Shown here piece after piece: positions 19,782 to 30,660 of a DNA stretch of 46,507 nt (the stretch's first letter is position 1; every line of letters starts with the position of its first letter). The translations under genes were made by a program, and so were the position numbers. The stretch spans positions 1 to 46,507 of the forward strand of contig JAIEMI010000013.1 of NCBI GenBank assembly GCA_019752235.1. The letters run 5' to 3'. The notes beneath the pieces are model-generated. The model saw nothing but the letters and a program-made list of their open reading frames with translations. It had not been told where the DNA came from and did no database searches. Origin of the DNA: Rhodospirillaceae bacterium. GTDB lineage: Bacteria > Pseudomonadota > Alphaproteobacteria > Rhodospirillales > Rhodospirillaceae.

Positions 19782-19856
19782 GGGCCCGTAGCTCAGTGGT
19801 AGAGCATCTGACTTTTAATCAGGGGGTCGGTGGTTCGAACCCACCCGGGCTCACCA
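19782..19856 (+). tRNA. tRNA-Lys (anticodon TTT), encoded CCA
   Basis: GGGCCCG...CGGGCTCACCA; acceptor stem pairs, anticodon loop CTTTTAA, T-arm GGTTCGAACCC. Confidence 0.95.
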
Positions 19857-19864
19857 ACTTCTTC
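19811..19864 (+). repeat. attL (54-bp direct repeat)
   Basis: ACTTTTAATCAGGGGGTCGGTGGTTCGAACCCACCCGGGCTCACCAACTTCTTC, identical to 30607-30660. Confidence 0.95.
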
Positions 19865-19982: not shown

Positions 19983-20870
19983 TTACCAGTCATTCCAGAG
20001 CTTCACCGCCGCCGTCAGAAATTTGTCGCACTTTTCAGCCTGCCAAGTGACCGGGCTTCCATCACGCAAAAGGTAGTACCGCTCATTAGCGCATACAAAC
20101 TTGCTGCGGTCTGCGGCCCGAATCCAATTAATGGCGTTGGCGAAGGTGTCCGCATAGCTGGAACCGAACTTATCATCTGGAACGTTGTAGAGCAGCCCTT
20201 CAAGGTAATAAGACGGGGCTAGGCCAGCCTCTATCATGCCGTCATCGACGAGTTTGCCACGCATGTTTTTGAGAATGCGTGCCATCGGTTTCAGCCAGTT
20301 TTTGGTGTTCTGATGTTTCGTCGTCAGGTTGTCCGAATGATGACGCGGGAAGTTATTAATCTGCTGACCACCGGCAGTGAAAAAGGTGATGCCTTCGTAG
20401 TAATCCAGATTGCCCGAAGAATTTTTGAAATAGCGTCGATGAGTTGCGGCGGCGATCACATCTGATTTGCGCCGGTTCCCCTCGGCGGCAATGGTAATGG
20501 CTTTATCGCCTGCCTTCGCGGCATCGCCATATTCAGTAGTCAGGCGCGTGACCACGTCTTTTTTGAATTGTGTGTTGCCATATTTGGCGTCGCTCATAGT
20601 GGCGTTGAGCGCGTCTTTGTCGGCTTGGGTCAATGCTTCGAGGTCTAAAAACAAAGCGGAGTTTAGTTGTATGACAACGTCGACATCGCTTTCCGCAAAA
20701 ATGTTTGTATCGTTGCCGTAGGAGCCTTGAAGAAAGACCGTGTAATCCTGGCCATTGTAAAGAGCCTTTGTGGATTCCAACGCGGTTTTGACGGATTTAT
20801 AGGTATCACGCGAACCGGCCATTGCGCCTTGGTTGGCCCAAGTATCGAGTTGTTTTTCAGGGATTGCCAC
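19983..20870 (-). CDS. cdnE: CBASS CD-NTase (CdnE-like cyclic oligonucleotide synthase)
   Basis: 'FLQGSYGNDTNIFAESDVDVVIQL' (GS...DxD nucleotidyltransferase motif), third acidic residue in 'RRKSDVIAA', 'NNFPRHH', 'APSYYLEGLLYNVPDDKFGSSYADTFANAINWI'; strongly resembles the recalled Rhodothermus marinus CdnE sequence. Confidence 0.88.
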   Translation of the reverse strand: MAIPEKQLDTWANQGAMAGSRDTYKSVKTALESTKALYNGQDYTVFLQGSYGNDTNIFAESDVDVVIQLNSALFLDLEALTQADKDALNATMSDAKYGNTQFKKDVVTRLTTEYGDAAKAGDKAITIAAEGNRRKSDVIAAATHRRYFKNSSGNLDYYEGITFFTAGGQQINNFPRHHSDNLTTKHQNTKNWLKPMARILKNMRGKLVDDGMIEAGLAPSYYLEGLLYNVPDDKFGSSYADTFANAINWIRAADRSKFVCANERYYLLRDGSPVTWQAEKCDKFLTAAVKLWNDW

Positions 20871-20882
20871 GTTCGTCAGCCT

Positions 20883-21845
20883 CTACAAAAGAAATGCTCG
20901 GAGATTTGCTTCGTGTTCACCGAAGGACTCGCTACCTCGTTGAAGGAGCACGTTGAGCTTTTTGAGGTCGTGCTCGAATAAATCAGTCGCCATCGCTGGC
21001 TCGGAATAGGTTTTATTTATCCGCACCGTGGGAATGTGTTTGAACAACGCATAGCGTAAGCTCTCCATGGACTGGGTATTGATCTCCAATGTCTTTTGTA
21101 GGAGCCGTACACCGGGAGTCATCTTGATGATGCGGCTTGGAATGTCGCGCATCCGAAGGCCTTTTTGGGGGTACATGCCGACACCAATGCTGACCAAGCG
21201 AATATCGGCTGGGGCATGCGCAAGGGGGCCAACAGCATCCGCAAGGGCGTAGAGCGCAGGATTGTTCGCGCAGTACCCACCGTCGATCAATTCAACGTCG
21301 TGCCCTTGAGCTGTGTGAACGACTTTTCGCTTCAGATAGGGGTACGCCGCACACGAGGCCTCCACAGCGTCGCCCACGCTGCATCCAAAACCTGGAACGA
21401 AGGTGCCGGTACGTCCGTGCGCTTGAACGCGATCATTCTTGAAAATCATCGGAGTTTCCGACACCCAGCGCGTGGCCACGATACCGATCCCGGTCTTCAT
21501 GTCCTCAAATCGACTGTCGGCAAATACTTCCTGAGCCAGTTCGCGCAAGGCGGCTGACTTCGCACCGGGTAGGATGGCGCCGGTAACTCTTGGAACGTGT
21601 TCCGTGTACAGCGCCTGAATTTCGTCTACCCCCCGACCGAGGGCCAATAGGGCTGCGATGATCGAGCCGGTGCTCGTGCCGAAGATGAGATCAAAGCGCT
21701 TGTGGAGGGGACAACCCAACAGCCCCTCGATTTCCTTAAGGACGCCGAGTGTGTAAAAGCCCTTAGCACCTCCGCCGTCCAAACTTAAGACGCGGCAAAT
21801 ACCATCCGGCTGATAGCTCGTTGAAAGGTTTGCTGCGGCATTCAC
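20883..21845 (-). CDS. capV: CapV-type patatin-like phospholipase (CBASS effector)
   Basis: 'LSLDGGGAKGFYTLGVL' oxyanion motif, 'FGTSTGSIIAALLALG' GxSxG, 'IDGGYCANNPAL' DGG dyad; GTG start; 12 nt upstream of the CD-NTase gene. Confidence 0.92.
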   Translation of the reverse strand: MNAAANLSTSYQPDGICRVLSLDGGGAKGFYTLGVLKEIEGLLGCPLHKRFDLIFGTSTGSIIAALLALGRGVDEIQALYTEHVPRVTGAILPGAKSAALRELAQEVFADSRFEDMKTGIGIVATRWVSETPMIFKNDRVQAHGRTGTFVPGFGCSVGDAVEASCAAYPYLKRKVVHTAQGHDVELIDGGYCANNPALYALADAVGPLAHAPADIRLVSIGVGMYPQKGLRMRDIPSRIIKMTPGVRLLQKTLEINTQSMESLRYALFKHIPTVRINKTYSEPAMATDLFEHDLKKLNVLLQRGSESFGEHEANLRAFLL

Positions 21846-21974: not shown

Positions 21975-22670
21975 TTAGGTATCGGGCATCCACTGTAAAG
22001 AGCCGCCGCTGACGTGGTTGGCACGGTGTTCGGCGTACCAAAGAGCAATCGCCACGGCCAAGACCAGGTCGTCATGGGTTCCCATGCGAGCGGCAAAAGT
22101 CATGTTTCCGACCTGCGTAAAATTCACCCGGAAATTCTGTAGCTCCGCCTTCAATGCCGGAAGGTCTGGCAGGTCGCCGGCGATTTCCAACTCTCCACTG
22201 TGGAGCATGGCCTGCAAGCGGCTGACCAGTTGCAGCTTGGCCACGCGGTAGTCGCCCATCGACCACGTTTCATTCTCGCCGCCGGTGATCGTGCAGCCTT
22301 TGGGCTTGAAACCGGCGGCGGCGAACATATCGAACACCGCGCGGCCTACGCCGGTTTTATCAATGATAAGTTCGGTGCCCTCTGTGTTCGACAGCGGTGG
22401 GCGCGCAAGCAGGCTGCCCACATAGGCCACTTGGGCCGGGTATGGGGTGCCCAGCTTCAGCCTTTCGAGGTGGCGCAGGATGTACGCTGTGCGCGAAGGC
22501 GTCGGCGGGCTGCCCCGTAGGGTGCCGCCGGGAATATGCTCCCGCTCGATCACCGCAATGGCCGTAGGATCGGTGGTTTGGCCCAGGTCAACGCCCACGG
22601 TGTAGGTGCGCGTGGTGCCCCGGCGCTGCGCATCGGCGAAAGCTTCAGGCGTTTTGTACTTAATCGTCAT
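21975..22670 (-). CDS. Terminase large subunit, C-terminal nuclease (RNase H-like) domain
   Basis: 'TVGVDLGQTTDPTAIAVIE', 'ELIIDKTGVGRAVFD', 'GTHDDLVLAVAIALWYAEH' acidic nuclease motifs; ATG 22670 preceded by GAGGAAGG. Confidence 0.82.
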   Translation of the reverse strand: MTIKYKTPEAFADAQRRGTTRTYTVGVDLGQTTDPTAIAVIEREHIPGGTLRGSPPTPSRTAYILRHLERLKLGTPYPAQVAYVGSLLARPPLSNTEGTELIIDKTGVGRAVFDMFAAAGFKPKGCTITGGENETWSMGDYRVAKLQLVSRLQAMLHSGELEIAGDLPDLPALKAELQNFRVNFTQVGNMTFAARMGTHDDLVLAVAIALWYAEHRANHVSGGSLQWMPDT

Positions 22671-22848
22671 CGCCTTCCTCCAATTCGTCGGGCGTAAGCA
22701 CCCACCGCCACGGCCTGCCCAGGTCAACGCCGCGCCGTGTTTTGTTCTCGAAGCTTTCGACAGTGACCTTGCCACCGCTCACGGCCACCACATGAACAAG
22801 GATGCCGTGGTAATAGGCGCGGTCACCTATGCCGCAAGACTTGGCCAT
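22660..22848 (-). CDS. 62-aa protein between terminase ATPase and nuclease genes (possible small beta-barrel)
   Basis: MAKSCGIGDRAYYHGILVHVVAVSGGKVTVESFENKTRRGVDLGRPWRWVLTPDELEEGDDD; overlaps both neighbours by 22 and 11 nt. Confidence 0.65.
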   Translation of the reverse strand: MAKSCGIGDRAYYHGILVHVVAVSGGKVTVESFENKTRRGVDLGRPWRWVLTPDELEEGDDD

Positions 22849-23591
22849 AGGCTGCTCCGTTGGGCTTTGATGGCGTTCTCAATAATCGCCGTGCTGAACA
22901 CCTGTTCGTCGGTGTCAACAAACTCGCACATATACTCTTGGCGGAATTGAAGCTCTCCAATGTGGCGGCGTTCGTCGGCAAGCCAGTCGGGGCTGATGCG
23001 CGGGCATTGGTCGGCCGTGATGCGCGTGCGTGACCAAGTGCGGTCGCCGCTGGTCCATGCGTCGTGAAACCAACCCCGGCACCCATAAGGCGTGGTCAGC
23101 GCCAGCAAGCGGCCCCGCGTGGTGGCCAGCATTGGGCGCATGGCGGTGTAGAGCGCGTCTTCAATGCGGCTGGCTTCATCCATAATGATGAGCTTGGGCG
23201 CACTGTAGCCACGAACGGTTGCCTCCGTGCCGGGGAGCGCAATGATCCGGCTGCCGTTTGCAAACTCGATCCGCAGCGCGCTTTCCTGTTCCGTGCCGGG
23301 CGTGACGTTGAGGTTTCGGTGGAAGTCCGTCGTCTTGCGGAATAGTTCTTGCGACTGCCGTAGGCTGGGGCTGACGAGCAATACCAAGGCGGGGGCTTCG
23401 TACAGCGCAGTGTGAACAGCGAGAGCCGCGCATGTGGTGGACTTGCCCGACTGCCGACTGCACAACAGCAAATGCCGATTACTGCCGCCGCTCAGGATGG
23501 CCTCTTGCCACGGGTCGGGTTCTAAACCGGCGGCGGTCATAATCCGCGCTGGGTCTAGCCCAATGGCAAAGTCATCACTCAGCCGCGACAT
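22827..23591 (-). CDS. Terminase large subunit, N-terminal ATPase domain
   Basis: 'LLLCSRQSGKSTTCAALA' Walker A, 'KLIIMDEASRIEDALY' Walker B, 'ATTRGRLLALTTPYGCRGWFHDAW' coupling motif, ends 'QEYMCEFVDTDEQVFSTAIIENAI'. Confidence 0.88.
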   Translation of the reverse strand: MSRLSDDFAIGLDPARIMTAAGLEPDPWQEAILSGGSNRHLLLCSRQSGKSTTCAALAVHTALYEAPALVLLVSPSLRQSQELFRKTTDFHRNLNVTPGTEQESALRIEFANGSRIIALPGTEATVRGYSAPKLIIMDEASRIEDALYTAMRPMLATTRGRLLALTTPYGCRGWFHDAWTSGDRTWSRTRITADQCPRISPDWLADERRHIGELQFRQEYMCEFVDTDEQVFSTAIIENAIKAQRSSLWPSLAA

Positions 23592-24141
23592 GTTCTATCG
23601 CCGGGGGTGCCGTGCGCTCCATCGCCTGCAACGTCATCGCTACGGCCTTGCGAGCGTCGGGAAACGGCTCAAGGGCGCGGGTGATGGCGTGGCGCAATTC
23701 CAGATACTGCGGCGCGATGAGAAAGTTGTTCGTCACATGGCCCGAACGACTGGCCAAGTCGCCTACCAGCTTTGCAATCGTCTTGGTGTTTTCCAACAGC
23801 ACCTTGTGGAAAACCGACACGGCCACGGGGTCCATGTTGGCCTCGGCCTTATCAATCTGCTGTAGAACGTGCGCCTTTTGCCAAATCAGCGTCTGAAGCA
23901 AACCCTCGCTCTCGCTTTTGCGCAGAGCCTCCAAATCAATCGAAGAAGCGGCTCCACTTTGGGACAGCAACGCGGCCTCAAGCTGCGGCGGTAAGTGCTT
24001 CTTCTTGTGCCGGTGGATCGCATCACGCGATACGCTGAACCGCTTGGCCACGCGCCACTCCGACACCCGATTGGCCAACGAGTGGTCAATCTCCGGGCGG
24101 CGTGGGTGGTTGCAGATGGAGCATTGCGTCGCTTTGGTCAC
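23575..24141 (-). CDS. Putative small terminase subunit / HTH DNA-binding protein
   Basis: 'CSICNHPRRPEIDHSLANRVSEWRVAKRFSVSRDAIHRHKKKHLP' zinc-ribbon-like plus HTH; immediately upstream of, and overlapping, the terminase ATPase gene. Confidence 0.65.
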   Translation of the reverse strand: MTKATQCSICNHPRRPEIDHSLANRVSEWRVAKRFSVSRDAIHRHKKKHLPPQLEAALLSQSGAASSIDLEALRKSESEGLLQTLIWQKAHVLQQIDKAEANMDPVAVSVFHKVLLENTKTIAKLVGDLASRSGHVTNNFLIAPQYLELRHAITRALEPFPDARKAVAMTLQAMERTAPPAIEHVAAE

Positions 24142-25722: not shown

Positions 25723-27927
25723 CTAGAATGACTCCGCTTGGCCCGGCTTGAATGGGCGTAGGTAGGCAACAGCAAGTTCCCTCTCCTTGGCCTCACTCCA
25801 TTTGTCATGATCACGGATGATCCAGAGCCGTAGCTTGCGGCCATCGGCCATGCGCACCGGGTTCCTGATAGAGATTGCGCCAATAGATTTTAGGAAGTCT
25901 GTCAGCGGGACTTCACGGTACTTGTTGAACTTGGGCGGCATTACATCCAACACATGACCGACGTTGATTAGGTCGTGCTCAAACGGAAAATCACCTTCTT
26001 CAAATCGGCGCAGCAAGAATTCCTCGGCTGGGTGCTTGTTGGCCTTTGCCATATCGCGCTTGGCTTCGGTCATTGGGGCGTGACCCTTTGCCGGGAAGTC
26101 TGACAGGTCAACTTCGCGGAGGTAGTGCCTCATCGCCGCCGTGCTTTCGCGAGTGTCCAGCCACTCGTAGAGTGCCATGTAGTAACCCTCTGGCTTGAGA
26201 CGATCAGTGGTGTTGAGAATGCAGAACCGCCTATCCTTGTCTTCAAGAGCGATCGCGGTCTTAGCGAAGTTGCTGGTGATGAAAAGGTTTGTGCGGTTGG
26301 GTTGCTCAAAGGGACGTAAGTATTTTTGATTAATCCAAATTGTGCGGTTGGTGATCACCGTTTTTAGATCGTTGGCTGCTTCAAGTCGGTGGTCCTGATA
26401 GATTTCTTCAACACCGAGAAGTTGGACGTTCTGCATAAATCCGTTGAAGTCGCTTTTAAGTTCCTTTGCTTTGATGTTGGTGGCGTTCTTGCCACCTACG
26501 ATGCGCGCGGCGAATTCATAGAGCGTTGTCTTGCCGGTCCCTTGAATGCCAACCACGACCAGCGCCCAGTGTATCTTCACTCCGGGGTGCTGTTCCTGGA
26601 ACGCCAGCCACTGAATGACGAGTTTCTGGTGCTCCTTGTTCGGGAACAGGTACGCGATGTGATCGAGCATGGGCGTGACGTCGCCGGCCTTTGGCGAAAT
26701 CGGGTTCGGACTCCATGTATTTAGTTTTCGCTGGCCGTCTTCAGTGGTGAATCGGTCCGCGCCGGGAGCGTAGGTAAGATTGCGCACTTTCTCGAAATGC
26801 GGATTCTTAAGAAGCCTTCTACTTATGCCGCTCCTGTATTGCGCCAGGTATTCCTTATCGAGCTGACCGCCACTTAATATGGAGTTGTCGATAAGATCGA
26901 CAAAGCCGTCGGGCATGGTCGCATACACAAACCGCGTCACCGGATCGGCGCCGAAGTGACTGCGATGGTAAGCCGACGCCCCGTTAATAAGCGCTTCAAC
27001 GTCTAGCTCGCAATCCTCGGGGGCGTCATCGGCTAAATCCCACTTCTTAGGTAGGCCGGTGGGCAAATCTACAATGCTGACCGATTCTGCGCCCGCATCT
27101 AAACAACACAGTGCGACACCCTCAGCGGCATCGCGGCCAGCATCGTCATTGTCTGGCCAAATGCAAACCGAGCGCCCTTTGAGCGGCGACCAATCTGCCT
27201 TTTCGTGGCCTCCCGTGCCGCCCATCCACGTAATGCACACGCTGTTAGGCAGGCGCGCTTGGGCGGCGTCAGCAGATTTTTCACCTTCGCATATCAGCAC
27301 ATGGGAATCTGGGCGCTGCGCAAGACGATCTAACCCGTAAAGCGGCTTAGGCTCTGTGGGAGCTTTGCATTGCCACTCACCGGACGACCAGTAAGTGAAG
27401 GGCCGGAATTGTTTCTTGGGAAAGCGCGCGACGGTGCAGATTAACTCACCTTGCGCATCGAGGTAGTCCCATGAGAGGTCCGGGTTGCCTAGCTTTAGCT
27501 TTTTCCCGAATGCTTCGAGGTCGAGCGCGGGAGCGTGCGCGGGCACAGGGAACATGGCTCTCGGCTTTGTGGTCCACAAACCCATAGCCGACAACGCCGC
27601 AAGAATTTCAGGTTTCCCTTCCTCACCGCAGACATGGCAGTGAAACACGACCTTGCTACCGCTCATGTTCACGGACATAGCGGGTGTGTCGGTATTGTCG
27701 TGCGCCGGGTTAGGGCAAAAGGCTAGGAAACCACTACCTTGCTTCTCTCCGCCCAGAGTTTCGCAGATGATGTTATAAAGCGCTAATTGGTCACTTATGC
27801 CCTTATCATCTTTGGGCGTTGGAGCTAGCTTGACTCGGTCAATCGGTTTTTCTTTTCTGGCCCCTACCTTTGCCGAGGTGGGGGCCGTTCGCTTTTTAGC
27901 GCTTCTTTTTGTCTTCGTTGCGGCCAT
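25723..27927 (-). CDS. Primase-helicase (CHC2-like zinc finger, Toprim, D5/DUF5906-like helicase)
   Basis: 'FCPNPAHDNTDTPAMSVN...VVFHCHVCGEEG' zinc finger; 'HVLICEGEKSADAA...CIWPDNDDAGRDAA' Toprim; 'LVVVGIQGTGKTTLYEFAARIVGG' Walker A. Confidence 0.9.
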   Translation of the reverse strand: MAATKTKRSAKKRTAPTSAKVGARKEKPIDRVKLAPTPKDDKGISDQLALYNIICETLGGEKQGSGFLAFCPNPAHDNTDTPAMSVNMSGSKVVFHCHVCGEEGKPEILAALSAMGLWTTKPRAMFPVPAHAPALDLEAFGKKLKLGNPDLSWDYLDAQGELICTVARFPKKQFRPFTYWSSGEWQCKAPTEPKPLYGLDRLAQRPDSHVLICEGEKSADAAQARLPNSVCITWMGGTGGHEKADWSPLKGRSVCIWPDNDDAGRDAAEGVALCCLDAGAESVSIVDLPTGLPKKWDLADDAPEDCELDVEALINGASAYHRSHFGADPVTRFVYATMPDGFVDLIDNSILSGGQLDKEYLAQYRSGISRRLLKNPHFEKVRNLTYAPGADRFTTEDGQRKLNTWSPNPISPKAGDVTPMLDHIAYLFPNKEHQKLVIQWLAFQEQHPGVKIHWALVVVGIQGTGKTTLYEFAARIVGGKNATNIKAKELKSDFNGFMQNVQLLGVEEIYQDHRLEAANDLKTVITNRTIWINQKYLRPFEQPNRTNLFITSNFAKTAIALEDKDRRFCILNTTDRLKPEGYYMALYEWLDTRESTAAMRHYLREVDLSDFPAKGHAPMTEAKRDMAKANKHPAEEFLLRRFEEGDFPFEHDLINVGHVLDVMPPKFNKYREVPLTDFLKSIGAISIRNPVRMADGRKLRLWIIRDHDKWSEAKERELAVAYLRPFKPGQAESF

Positions 27928-28204
27928 TTGGTCCCCCGTTAGCAAGCCAAGTGTCTAATTCGGAAATACGGTATCGCAGCACGCGCTCACTAATCCGCAC
28001 GAGCTTGGGGCCTTTCCCCGAGGCCTCTAACTTGCGCAGGTAGCTGTGGCTGATGCTGAGGTAAGCCGCCGCCTGTTTGCGTGGCAGCAACGTGTTTGGA
28101 TCTTTACGCGGCTGCACAGCTTGCCCGGCCAAGATCGCCAGGAGCTCAACTGCTGTCAGGCGGCAAAGCTGCTCCCGAAGCTCGCCGGGAATAGAGATGG
28201 GCAT
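27896..28204 (-). CDS. AlpA/excisionase-type HTH protein
   Basis: 'LLPRKQAAAYLSISHSYLRKLEASGKGPKLVRISERVLRYRISELDTWLANGG' MerR/AlpA-type HTH_17; start at MPISIPG. Confidence 0.85.
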   Translation of the reverse strand: MPISIPGELREQLCRLTAVELLAILAGQAVQPRKDPNTLLPRKQAAAYLSISHSYLRKLEASGKGPKLVRISERVLRYRISELDTWLANGGPNGRNEDKKKR

Positions 28205-28402
28205 GAGTCCTCGCTCTCGCACGGCAGAGACGCGTGAACGCGCTCTGCAAATGCAGGTGAAAAGCACAAACGGTTTTCGGTACTCTTACCCAGTACGAGA
28301 GTAGGACGCCGGGGGTACGGCTAGCTGTCCATCTAGGCTCCGCTCGACTGCGTTGCGACACGGCTTAAGTCGAGAATTTCTATCTAACTCCGGCCACACC
28401 GC

Positions 28403-28929: not shown

Positions 28930-30420
28930 CTAGGCGGCCTGTTTTGCCCTTCGCGCCAACTCCAAATCCGTAACGGGCTTCATGCGCAACAGACCTTCCC
29001 GCATGTATTCCGCAGACTTATCCGGCCCCGCTTTGGCCGCATCGAACGTGACCGCGCCAAAACGCCGCACGTAAGCTGCTTCAAGTGCAGCCGCATCTTT
29101 CGGCAGCTTTTCAGCGTCCGTAATATTGATGCCAGCAAGCAGCAGAATTTCATCTGTCACCTTTTGCATTGGCTCGCGCAGTCTATCCAAGTCGGTGTGG
29201 ATGTAGCCGCTGGTTACGCTGGCGCTAACGCGATGGTCCATGAGGCGACCAATGATGTCCTCCGCTACTACGCGATTGCCGAGGGTGGCGAATGTTCGGC
29301 GTAGGCCGTGGTGGGCGCATAGCTTGGCAACACCGGCAGCGCGGCGGCACCGATCAACAGGTTTGCGAAGCTCCTTGTAGTGCTGCACCGTGGTAACGCC
29401 GTCTTTCGTAAACCTCTTGGCCCATACCCAGGGCACGGTGTCTTTCCAGTCCTCAGTGGCATCGTGCATCGCCTTTCGGCGTTCCAGCAGGCGAAATAGA
29501 TAGTCCGGCATTGGAAATTCGTAATCGCGCCCCGACTTCATTTGCTCGCCTTGGTAGCGGATGGCCCTAGCGGCAAAGTCCACCTGATCCCAACGCAGTG
29601 ATAAAGCGTTCTTCTCACGCAGCGCTGTCAGCAGGATGAACTTGATAATGTCCGCCTGTATTGGCTGTTCCTTATCCACCGCACCCCAGAACGCTTCCAT
29701 TTGGTGGGGTGCGATGTGGTCATTGCGGCGCTTCTCTTTGTGCCAGAGCTTTTTGCGGGACAGCACATCAACCGGGCAGCGCGGCAGCGTTTCATCGTCA
29801 ATCACAGCCACGCGCCATAGCAGGCGGAGAGCGCGTAAGGCGTGGTTCGCCACAACGCGGCCGTCTGCGCCTTTGCGCCCAGCGGCTTTGACCTCTTTGG
29901 GAATCTCGTAAAAGCGTTGCTCTGCCAGCGCACTCGTAATGCTGCGCAACGGCAGGTCGAGCCAGGGAGCAAGGTGGCGGGTGGTATTGTCCTCTAGCTG
30001 GTCAATGGTGCGCGCTCTGGGTTTGCCGCGCTCACGGCATTCCGCGACGTGCTTTTCCATCACCTGTCGCAATGTGCGCCCGGCAAGTTGGCGTTGTTTT
30101 AGCTCTTGCTCGGGGTCGATGCCTTCATTGCCCCTGGCCAAGTATTTCACAGCCTTCACTCTGGCCTGTTCAAAGGTGAGCTCTGTGGTGCGGCCCAGGG
30201 CGATGCGCGGGCGTTTGTTCTGGCCCTTAATGCTCAGGCGGACCACGTAGGTCTTGGCCTTGGTGGTGGCTGACACCATCACCCCGAATCCCTTTAGCTC
30301 GGTGTCCCACACGATACCGGGCATGGGCTTACCCGCGTTCTTGCCGTTTTTGTAGGTAAGGCCACTTGGGGCCGGGAGGCGATTGACGACGTTGGCGTTT
30401 AGACGCTGCTTGCTCTGCAT
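28930..30420 (-). CDS. int: Tyrosine-type site-specific integrase
   Basis: DUF4102-like N-terminus; 'LTALREKNALSLRWDQVDF' (catalytic Arg region), 'HHGLRRTFATLGNRV' (HxxR), 'DHRVSASVTSGYIHTD' (catalytic Tyr). Confidence 0.93.
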   Translation of the reverse strand: MQSKQRLNANVVNRLPAPSGLTYKNGKNAGKPMPGIVWDTELKGFGVMVSATTKAKTYVVRLSIKGQNKRPRIALGRTTELTFEQARVKAVKYLARGNEGIDPEQELKQRQLAGRTLRQVMEKHVAECRERGKPRARTIDQLEDNTTRHLAPWLDLPLRSITSALAEQRFYEIPKEVKAAGRKGADGRVVANHALRALRLLWRVAVIDDETLPRCPVDVLSRKKLWHKEKRRNDHIAPHQMEAFWGAVDKEQPIQADIIKFILLTALREKNALSLRWDQVDFAARAIRYQGEQMKSGRDYEFPMPDYLFRLLERRKAMHDATEDWKDTVPWVWAKRFTKDGVTTVQHYKELRKPVDRCRRAAGVAKLCAHHGLRRTFATLGNRVVAEDIIGRLMDHRVSASVTSGYIHTDLDRLREPMQKVTDEILLLAGINITDAEKLPKDAAALEAAYVRRFGAVTFDAAKAGPDKSAEYMREGLLRMKPVTDLELARRAKQAA

Positions 30421-30458: not shown

Positions 30459-30606
30459 GGAGTGGCGGGCCGGGTCGCGCGGTGTCCGCCAGGGACCAAT
30501 CAATTAGGGGGTCGATGAGTCATATGGCAAGGAAAACAGTCCCTTAGTGACACCCGGTGGCACCTACGGTATCCAGGTGACTCATAGCGTGGGGTGGCTG
30601 GGGCTA

Positions 30607-30660
30607 ACTTTTAATCAGGGGGTCGGTGGTTCGAACCCACCCGGGCTCACCAACTTCTTC
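30607..30660 (+). repeat. attR (54-bp direct repeat of tRNA-Lys 3' half)
   Basis: Identical to 19811-19864. Confidence 0.95.

Follow-up and report, generated by a model that had tools for sequence, protein, structure and literature searches.

The large terminase subunit (TerL) is usually regarded as a single polypeptide combining an ATPase and a nuclease, and how these two activities are coupled is an old question in viral DNA packaging. TerL of the Thermus phage P74-26/G20c and gp17 of phage T4 are single polypeptides of this kind, whereas the TerL described below is encoded by two genes. Among phage satellites, P4 uses the terminase of its helper, PICIs carry TerS at most, and cf-PICIs carry both terminase subunits together with capsid genes (PMC10690885, PMC6092414). 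By definition, a PICI is packaged via the helper TerL, the island contributing at most TerS or a cos site (PMC6092414), and a cf-PICI has its own capsid, portal, and terminase genes (PMC10690885). A literature search covering few subscription journals returned no description of separate ATPase and nuclease terminase genes or of capsid-less satellites carrying TerL.

The terminase locus studied here lies at positions 21975–23591, on the minus strand, of a 46,507-nt stretch (the window, meaning the whole DNA analyzed) of contig JAIEMI010000013.1 from Rhodospirillaceae bacterium GCA_019752235.1. The ATPase gene (22827–23591, minus strand; 254 aa) has a Walker A motif (CSRQSGKST), a Walker B motif (LIIMDEA), and a TTP motif, is assigned to Terminase_6N in Pfam (E 2.7e-13), and matches the solved TerL ATPase structures in a profile search (4zni, 9.9e-18). 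The RNase H-like nuclease gene (21975–22670, minus strand; 231 aa), with D28, D104, and D200/D201, is assigned to Terminase_6C at an E value of 1.7e-4, slightly below the curated cut-off, and matches a solved phage TerL nuclease (5m1f, 1.2e-10) in an alignment that brings the three catalytic Asp into register; the motifs GVDLG, IIDKTG, and HDD have invariant Asp residues throughout the nuclease family. Both domains match those of P74-26/G20c TerL and T4 gp17 by profile and have the same catalytic positions. Of the features that make up a Terminase_6-type TerL, two are present, namely an ATPase domain bearing the Walker A, Walker B, and coupling motifs and an RNase H-like nuclease retaining its three acidic catalytic residues, while the single polypeptide holding the two domains is replaced by two genes. 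A chance origin of the two genes is excluded. Between them is a 62-aa ORF (22660–22848, minus strand), overlapping the ATPase gene by 22 nt and the nuclease gene by 11 nt. The original prediction, which had placed a complete ORF with these overlaps between an ATPase gene and a nuclease gene, was exact to the base; it had not mentioned that the nuclease shares the frame of the ATPase. The sequence GGAGGAAGGCG is found ahead of the nuclease ATG (22670), and CGGAGCAGCCT ahead of the ATG of the 62-aa ORF.

The division of TerL into two genes is not peculiar to this locus. Among approximately 170 related loci, drawn from bacterial genomes, Salinibacter plasmids, a collection of one genome per species, and viral contigs, open frames placed the ATPase and the nuclease in adjacent separate genes in about 130 and in one fused gene in 34, counts to be read as biased frequencies because the locus searches were pattern-based. 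Closer inspection shows L144 and L147, counted as fused from their frames, to be split. The split form occurs in Pseudomonadota, Acidobacteriota, Planctomycetota, Chloroflexota, Bacillota, Salinibacter plasmids, and methanogens; archaeal loci on methanogen and Methanoperedens contigs (e.g., L044, L048, and L065) carry a TerS-like gene as well. In 50,697 isolated-phage records searched with the split nuclease, the split form was found in none, the only matches being fused TerLs of 27–30% identity. In a tree of 151 ATPases, split and fused forms cluster, with at least seven changes required, and the window ATPase falls within an all-split clade of 12 rows (SH-aLRT 96). Close homologues with a fused TerL would have spoken against the two-polypeptide reading; the close homologues turned out to be split, and fused ones are only more distant. 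In the closest relative, L017 from a Rhodospirillaceae MAG, TerL is split with the same ATPase end and the same nuclease start (MTVYY.. against MTIKY..) as in the window, and the ATPases are 81% identical as protein and about 70% as DNA, a difference indicative of purifying selection. Portals (SPP1-type, Mu-type, and podovirus) and capsid proteins occur in some split-TerL viral contigs, which implies that the split enzyme is a working form of TerL rather than a product of decay. Judged from this distribution, the split serves full phage-like genomes and capsid-less elements alike.

The junctions between the two genes also bear on how they are expressed. Adjacent halves in the approximately 130 split loci mostly overlap by a few nucleotides, and among 111 dereplicated split loci the most frequent junction is a 4-nt overlap (27 loci), while the gap exceeds 100 nt in 16, many of which hold complete ORFs. 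Of these 111 loci, 67 have the nuclease in the −1 frame relative to the ATPase and 22 in the +1 frame, while 22 keep both genes in one frame. The mixed frame relations and varied junctions exclude a conserved recoding signal, and the pattern is consistent with two separate proteins whose translation is coupled. The earlier claim of two polypeptides is thus borne out by the retention of the split in about 130 loci, the catalytic residues in both halves, the mixed frames, and the separate starts. From gene organization, a two-polypeptide motor is well supported, and the comparison of loci shows that separate ATPase and nuclease genes, as in this element, represent a broadly conserved form of TerL. 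The split also allows tandem duplication of the nuclease; two tandem nuclease genes follow one ATPase gene in plasmid pSR31 (L016, 5178–6436), and two are present in G537 contig 40 (2222–3399).

The 62-aa ORF itself looks coding from its codon usage, which is like that of real genes of the element (0.191 per codon, against a best value of 0.179 among 73 alternative-frame ORFs tested), and is probably a real gene. No relatives were found in viral contigs, phages, 177 loci, or the PDB, and 60 related genomes gave only chance-level matches. The ORF is absent from L017, whose two genes are joined by an ATGA overlap of 4 nt in a frame relation different from that of the window, and from the remaining complete members of the 12-row clade. 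Other lineages have ORFs seemingly unrelated to it in the same gap, from which it appears that the junction tolerates insertions: 109 aa in L004, 220 aa in L055, a conserved 138-aa ORF in Acetobacter L050 (4104–4520) and L058 (6762–7178), and, in L151 (2861–4897) and its near-copies L152–L154 and L156, a 678-aa metallophosphoesterase-like gene that apparently contains an intein-like insert. By eye, the small ORF in the gap of L004 (1172–1501) looks related to one downstream of the nuclease in L008 (2218–2568). Taken together, the absence of the 62-aa ORF from L017 and the clade, its lack of relatives, and the presence of other ORFs at this position elsewhere point to its entry into a pre-existing junction, which we consider the most likely origin.

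The original prediction held that TerL is split by this ORF and that its product serves as a small linker or adaptor, and it proposed a search for the same triad in other genomes. The first part is not supported, since the closest relative and the complete clade members are split without any small ORF, and the triad with this ORF was seen in no other locus searched. A linker or adaptor required by the split motor would suit the coding character of the ORF, its place right between the two halves, which it overlaps in a coupled manner, and the small SH3/Tudor-like beta barrel predicted for its product. The AlphaFold2 model from the single sequence, a four-stranded small barrel, is of low confidence (pLDDT 69), and a fold search with it gave many small SH3/Tudor/KOW-like matches, none below an E value of 0.24. 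As the ORF is an orphan that is missing from the clade, and other ORFs occupy the same junction elsewhere, an essential linker role is not supported and we regard it as highly unlikely; the gene is a local accessory that the split does not need.

The terminase genes are part of a 10.8-kb element delimited by 57-nt direct repeats that are 98% identical, one (19808–19864) comprising the 3′ part of a tRNA-Lys (ttt) gene (19782–19856, plus strand), the integration target, and the other (30604–30660) at the integrase side. From the integrase end, the genes are a tyrosine integrase adjoining the att site (28930–30420, minus strand; phrog_1, 1.5e-29), two small genes, one of which encodes an excisionase/AlpA-like DNA-binding protein (27896–28267, minus strand; phrog_66, 2.8e-7), a DUF5906/VapE-like primase-helicase (25723–27945, minus strand), small genes, and a TerS-like protein (23575–24141, minus strand), followed by the ATPase, the 62-aa ORF, the nuclease, a phospholipase, and a cyclase. 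The last two form a CBASS, carried as cargo on the tRNA side (19983–21845), in which a CD-NTase-type oligonucleotide cyclase (19983–20870, minus strand; PDLC00788, 7.5e-118) adjoins a CapV-type patatin-like phospholipase effector (20883–21845, minus strand; PDLC00755, 3.9e-147). The same phospholipase is also carried by L017, and other relatives have different or no recognized defence cargo. When 20-kb regions around 12 relatives were examined for att repeats, exact 43–51-nt repeats of tRNA 3′ ends were found in seven, bounding elements of 9.8–14.8 kb that start with the integrase and have the tRNA behind the cargo, with a gene order similar to that in the window; none were found for L198 and L203, and none with confidence for L200–L202. 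Integrated, att-bounded elements with integrase and replication genes, as expected of satellites, are thereby seen in the window and in relatives. Portal, capsid, and tail proteins were absent among all 16 Pfam families of the 50 genes scanned, namely those not already assigned in the elements of the seven relatives, the window, and L017. This absence of structural genes is judged by Pfam profiles, which highly divergent genes such as a portal may escape, the PHROG families considered being the best 25 of 45.

The protein encoded upstream of the ATPase, which has a CxxC motif, a helix-turn-helix, and long helices, is a putative TerS, judged by position and architecture. Such a gene is found upstream of the ATPase in 52 split loci, in many cases directly; a TerS profile is matched by only 1 of 21 members of the family, and a fold search gave nothing significant in the PDB or among viral models.

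Several other explanations of the locus deserve consideration, two of which deny that there are two separate proteins. That a single TerL gene was interrupted through erroneous sequencing or a recent frameshift might be suspected from the shared frame of the two halves in the window and from the fragmented assembly from which the contig comes. Independent relatives in many phyla are nevertheless split, complete plasmid records included, and the split in L017 involves another frame. The original prediction had likewise argued against a simple frameshift, and the split state of L017 and its clade, together with the coding signal and own ribosome-binding site of the intervening ORF, agrees with it. 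The probability of such an artefact is minimal; a conserved split with mixed frames rules out error, frameshift, and recoding. A related idea, that the halves are joined through programmed frameshifting, stop read-through, an intron, or an intein, has precedents in the spliced group I introns that split terL in Jug phages (PMC12363816) and in the inteins that interrupt terL (PMC7156551), and overlapping frames exist at many junctions. It is very improbable in view of the mixed frame relations and the 16 loci with long, often ORF-containing gaps. The 4-nt overlap of L017 leaves no space for an intron or intein, and the tRNA is the sole RNA family found by Rfam in the element, so that neither the known terL introns nor the inteins apply to its split.

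Two further possibilities accept the separate proteins and question their role. The terminase genes could be left over from a degraded phage, as is suggested by L003, L019, and L052, which are visibly decayed, the ATPase or nuclease being apparently broken by stops or frameshifts. Such a remnant is distinctly unlikely here, given that similar gene order and size (9.8–14.8 kb) recur in no fewer than eight elements integrated at tRNAs and flanked by intact att repeats, and given the purifying selection, the intact catalytic residues, and the intact integration, replication, and defence modules. Alternatively, the pair may have been repurposed for interference with helper packaging or for defence, rather than serving to package the element: CBASS adjoins the terminase genes, capsid genes are absent, and a free nuclease or ATPase could conceivably poison helper packaging. 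This, too, is unlikely, because viral contigs with portal and capsid genes also contain the pair, the active sites of both halves are conserved, a TerS-like gene is located upstream, and the defence cargo of other relatives differs or is not recognized.

We therefore favor the interpretation that the tRNA-Lys-integrated element is probably a phage satellite with its own packaging enzyme and without a capsid; its packaging function and the existence of a helper are inferred. In the predicted mechanism, the element would be excised and then replicated by its primase, the TerS-like protein would select the element DNA, and the ATPase would dock on the portal of a helper phage and pump the DNA, with the separate nuclease recruited non-covalently for the initiation and termination cuts. 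The short overlaps may provide translational coupling that balances the amounts of ATPase and nuclease, the 62-aa gene is an accessory at the junction, and CBASS is cargo. A search for a helper prophage in the same assembly yielded one sub-threshold portal-like fragment only (G000 contig 317, 7–153), which possibly originates from a prophage or a gene transfer agent. More tentatively, the elements may constitute an unrecognized satellite class with its own complete motor, composed of a TerS-like protein and a two-polypeptide TerL, that borrows only the capsid and whose nuclease is free to undergo duplication or exchange or to be set apart from the ATPase by cargo genes; as part of the same tentative reading, this class may extend over bacteria, plasmids, and possibly archaea. 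A natural and widespread two-protein TerL makes the motor and the nuclease separately purifiable, mixable, and mutable, and the locus indicates that CBASS moves on such elements.

The position of this element among known systems is worth specifying. The window ATPase belongs to PHROG 7579, an ATPase-only terminase family of 239 aa, and the window nuclease to PHROG 27743, a family of 233 aa whose function label is unknown. The family lengths suggest that split forms are already in databases, although PHROGs neither label 27743 as a terminase nuclease nor describe its pairing with 7579. The nearest ATPases from isolated phages, those of Thermus phage Riverbug and Meiothermus phages MMP7/MMP17 (48–52%), belong to fused TerLs, encoded by full phage genomes that include portal and capsid. 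The Salinibacter ruber plasmids pSR11, pSR14, and pSR31 have the primase, a gene in the TerS position, the ATPase, and the nuclease in the same order as the element, but without the small ORF; they are circular plasmids, ParA being seen in pSR11 and pSR14, and pSR31 carries the two tandem nucleases. P4-like satellites, PICIs, and cf-PICIs resemble the element in size, att integration, primase, AlpA-like regulator, and defence cargo, and P4 and PICIs also in the lack of capsid genes. The element departs from the PICI definition in having its own TerL halves and from that of cf-PICIs in that portal and capsid were not found, and none of P4, PICIs, and cf-PICIs combines a TerS-like protein and a split TerL without a capsid, as this element does. 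If the interpretation is true, a capsid-less satellite with its own TerL would form a bridge between P4/PICI and cf-PICI.
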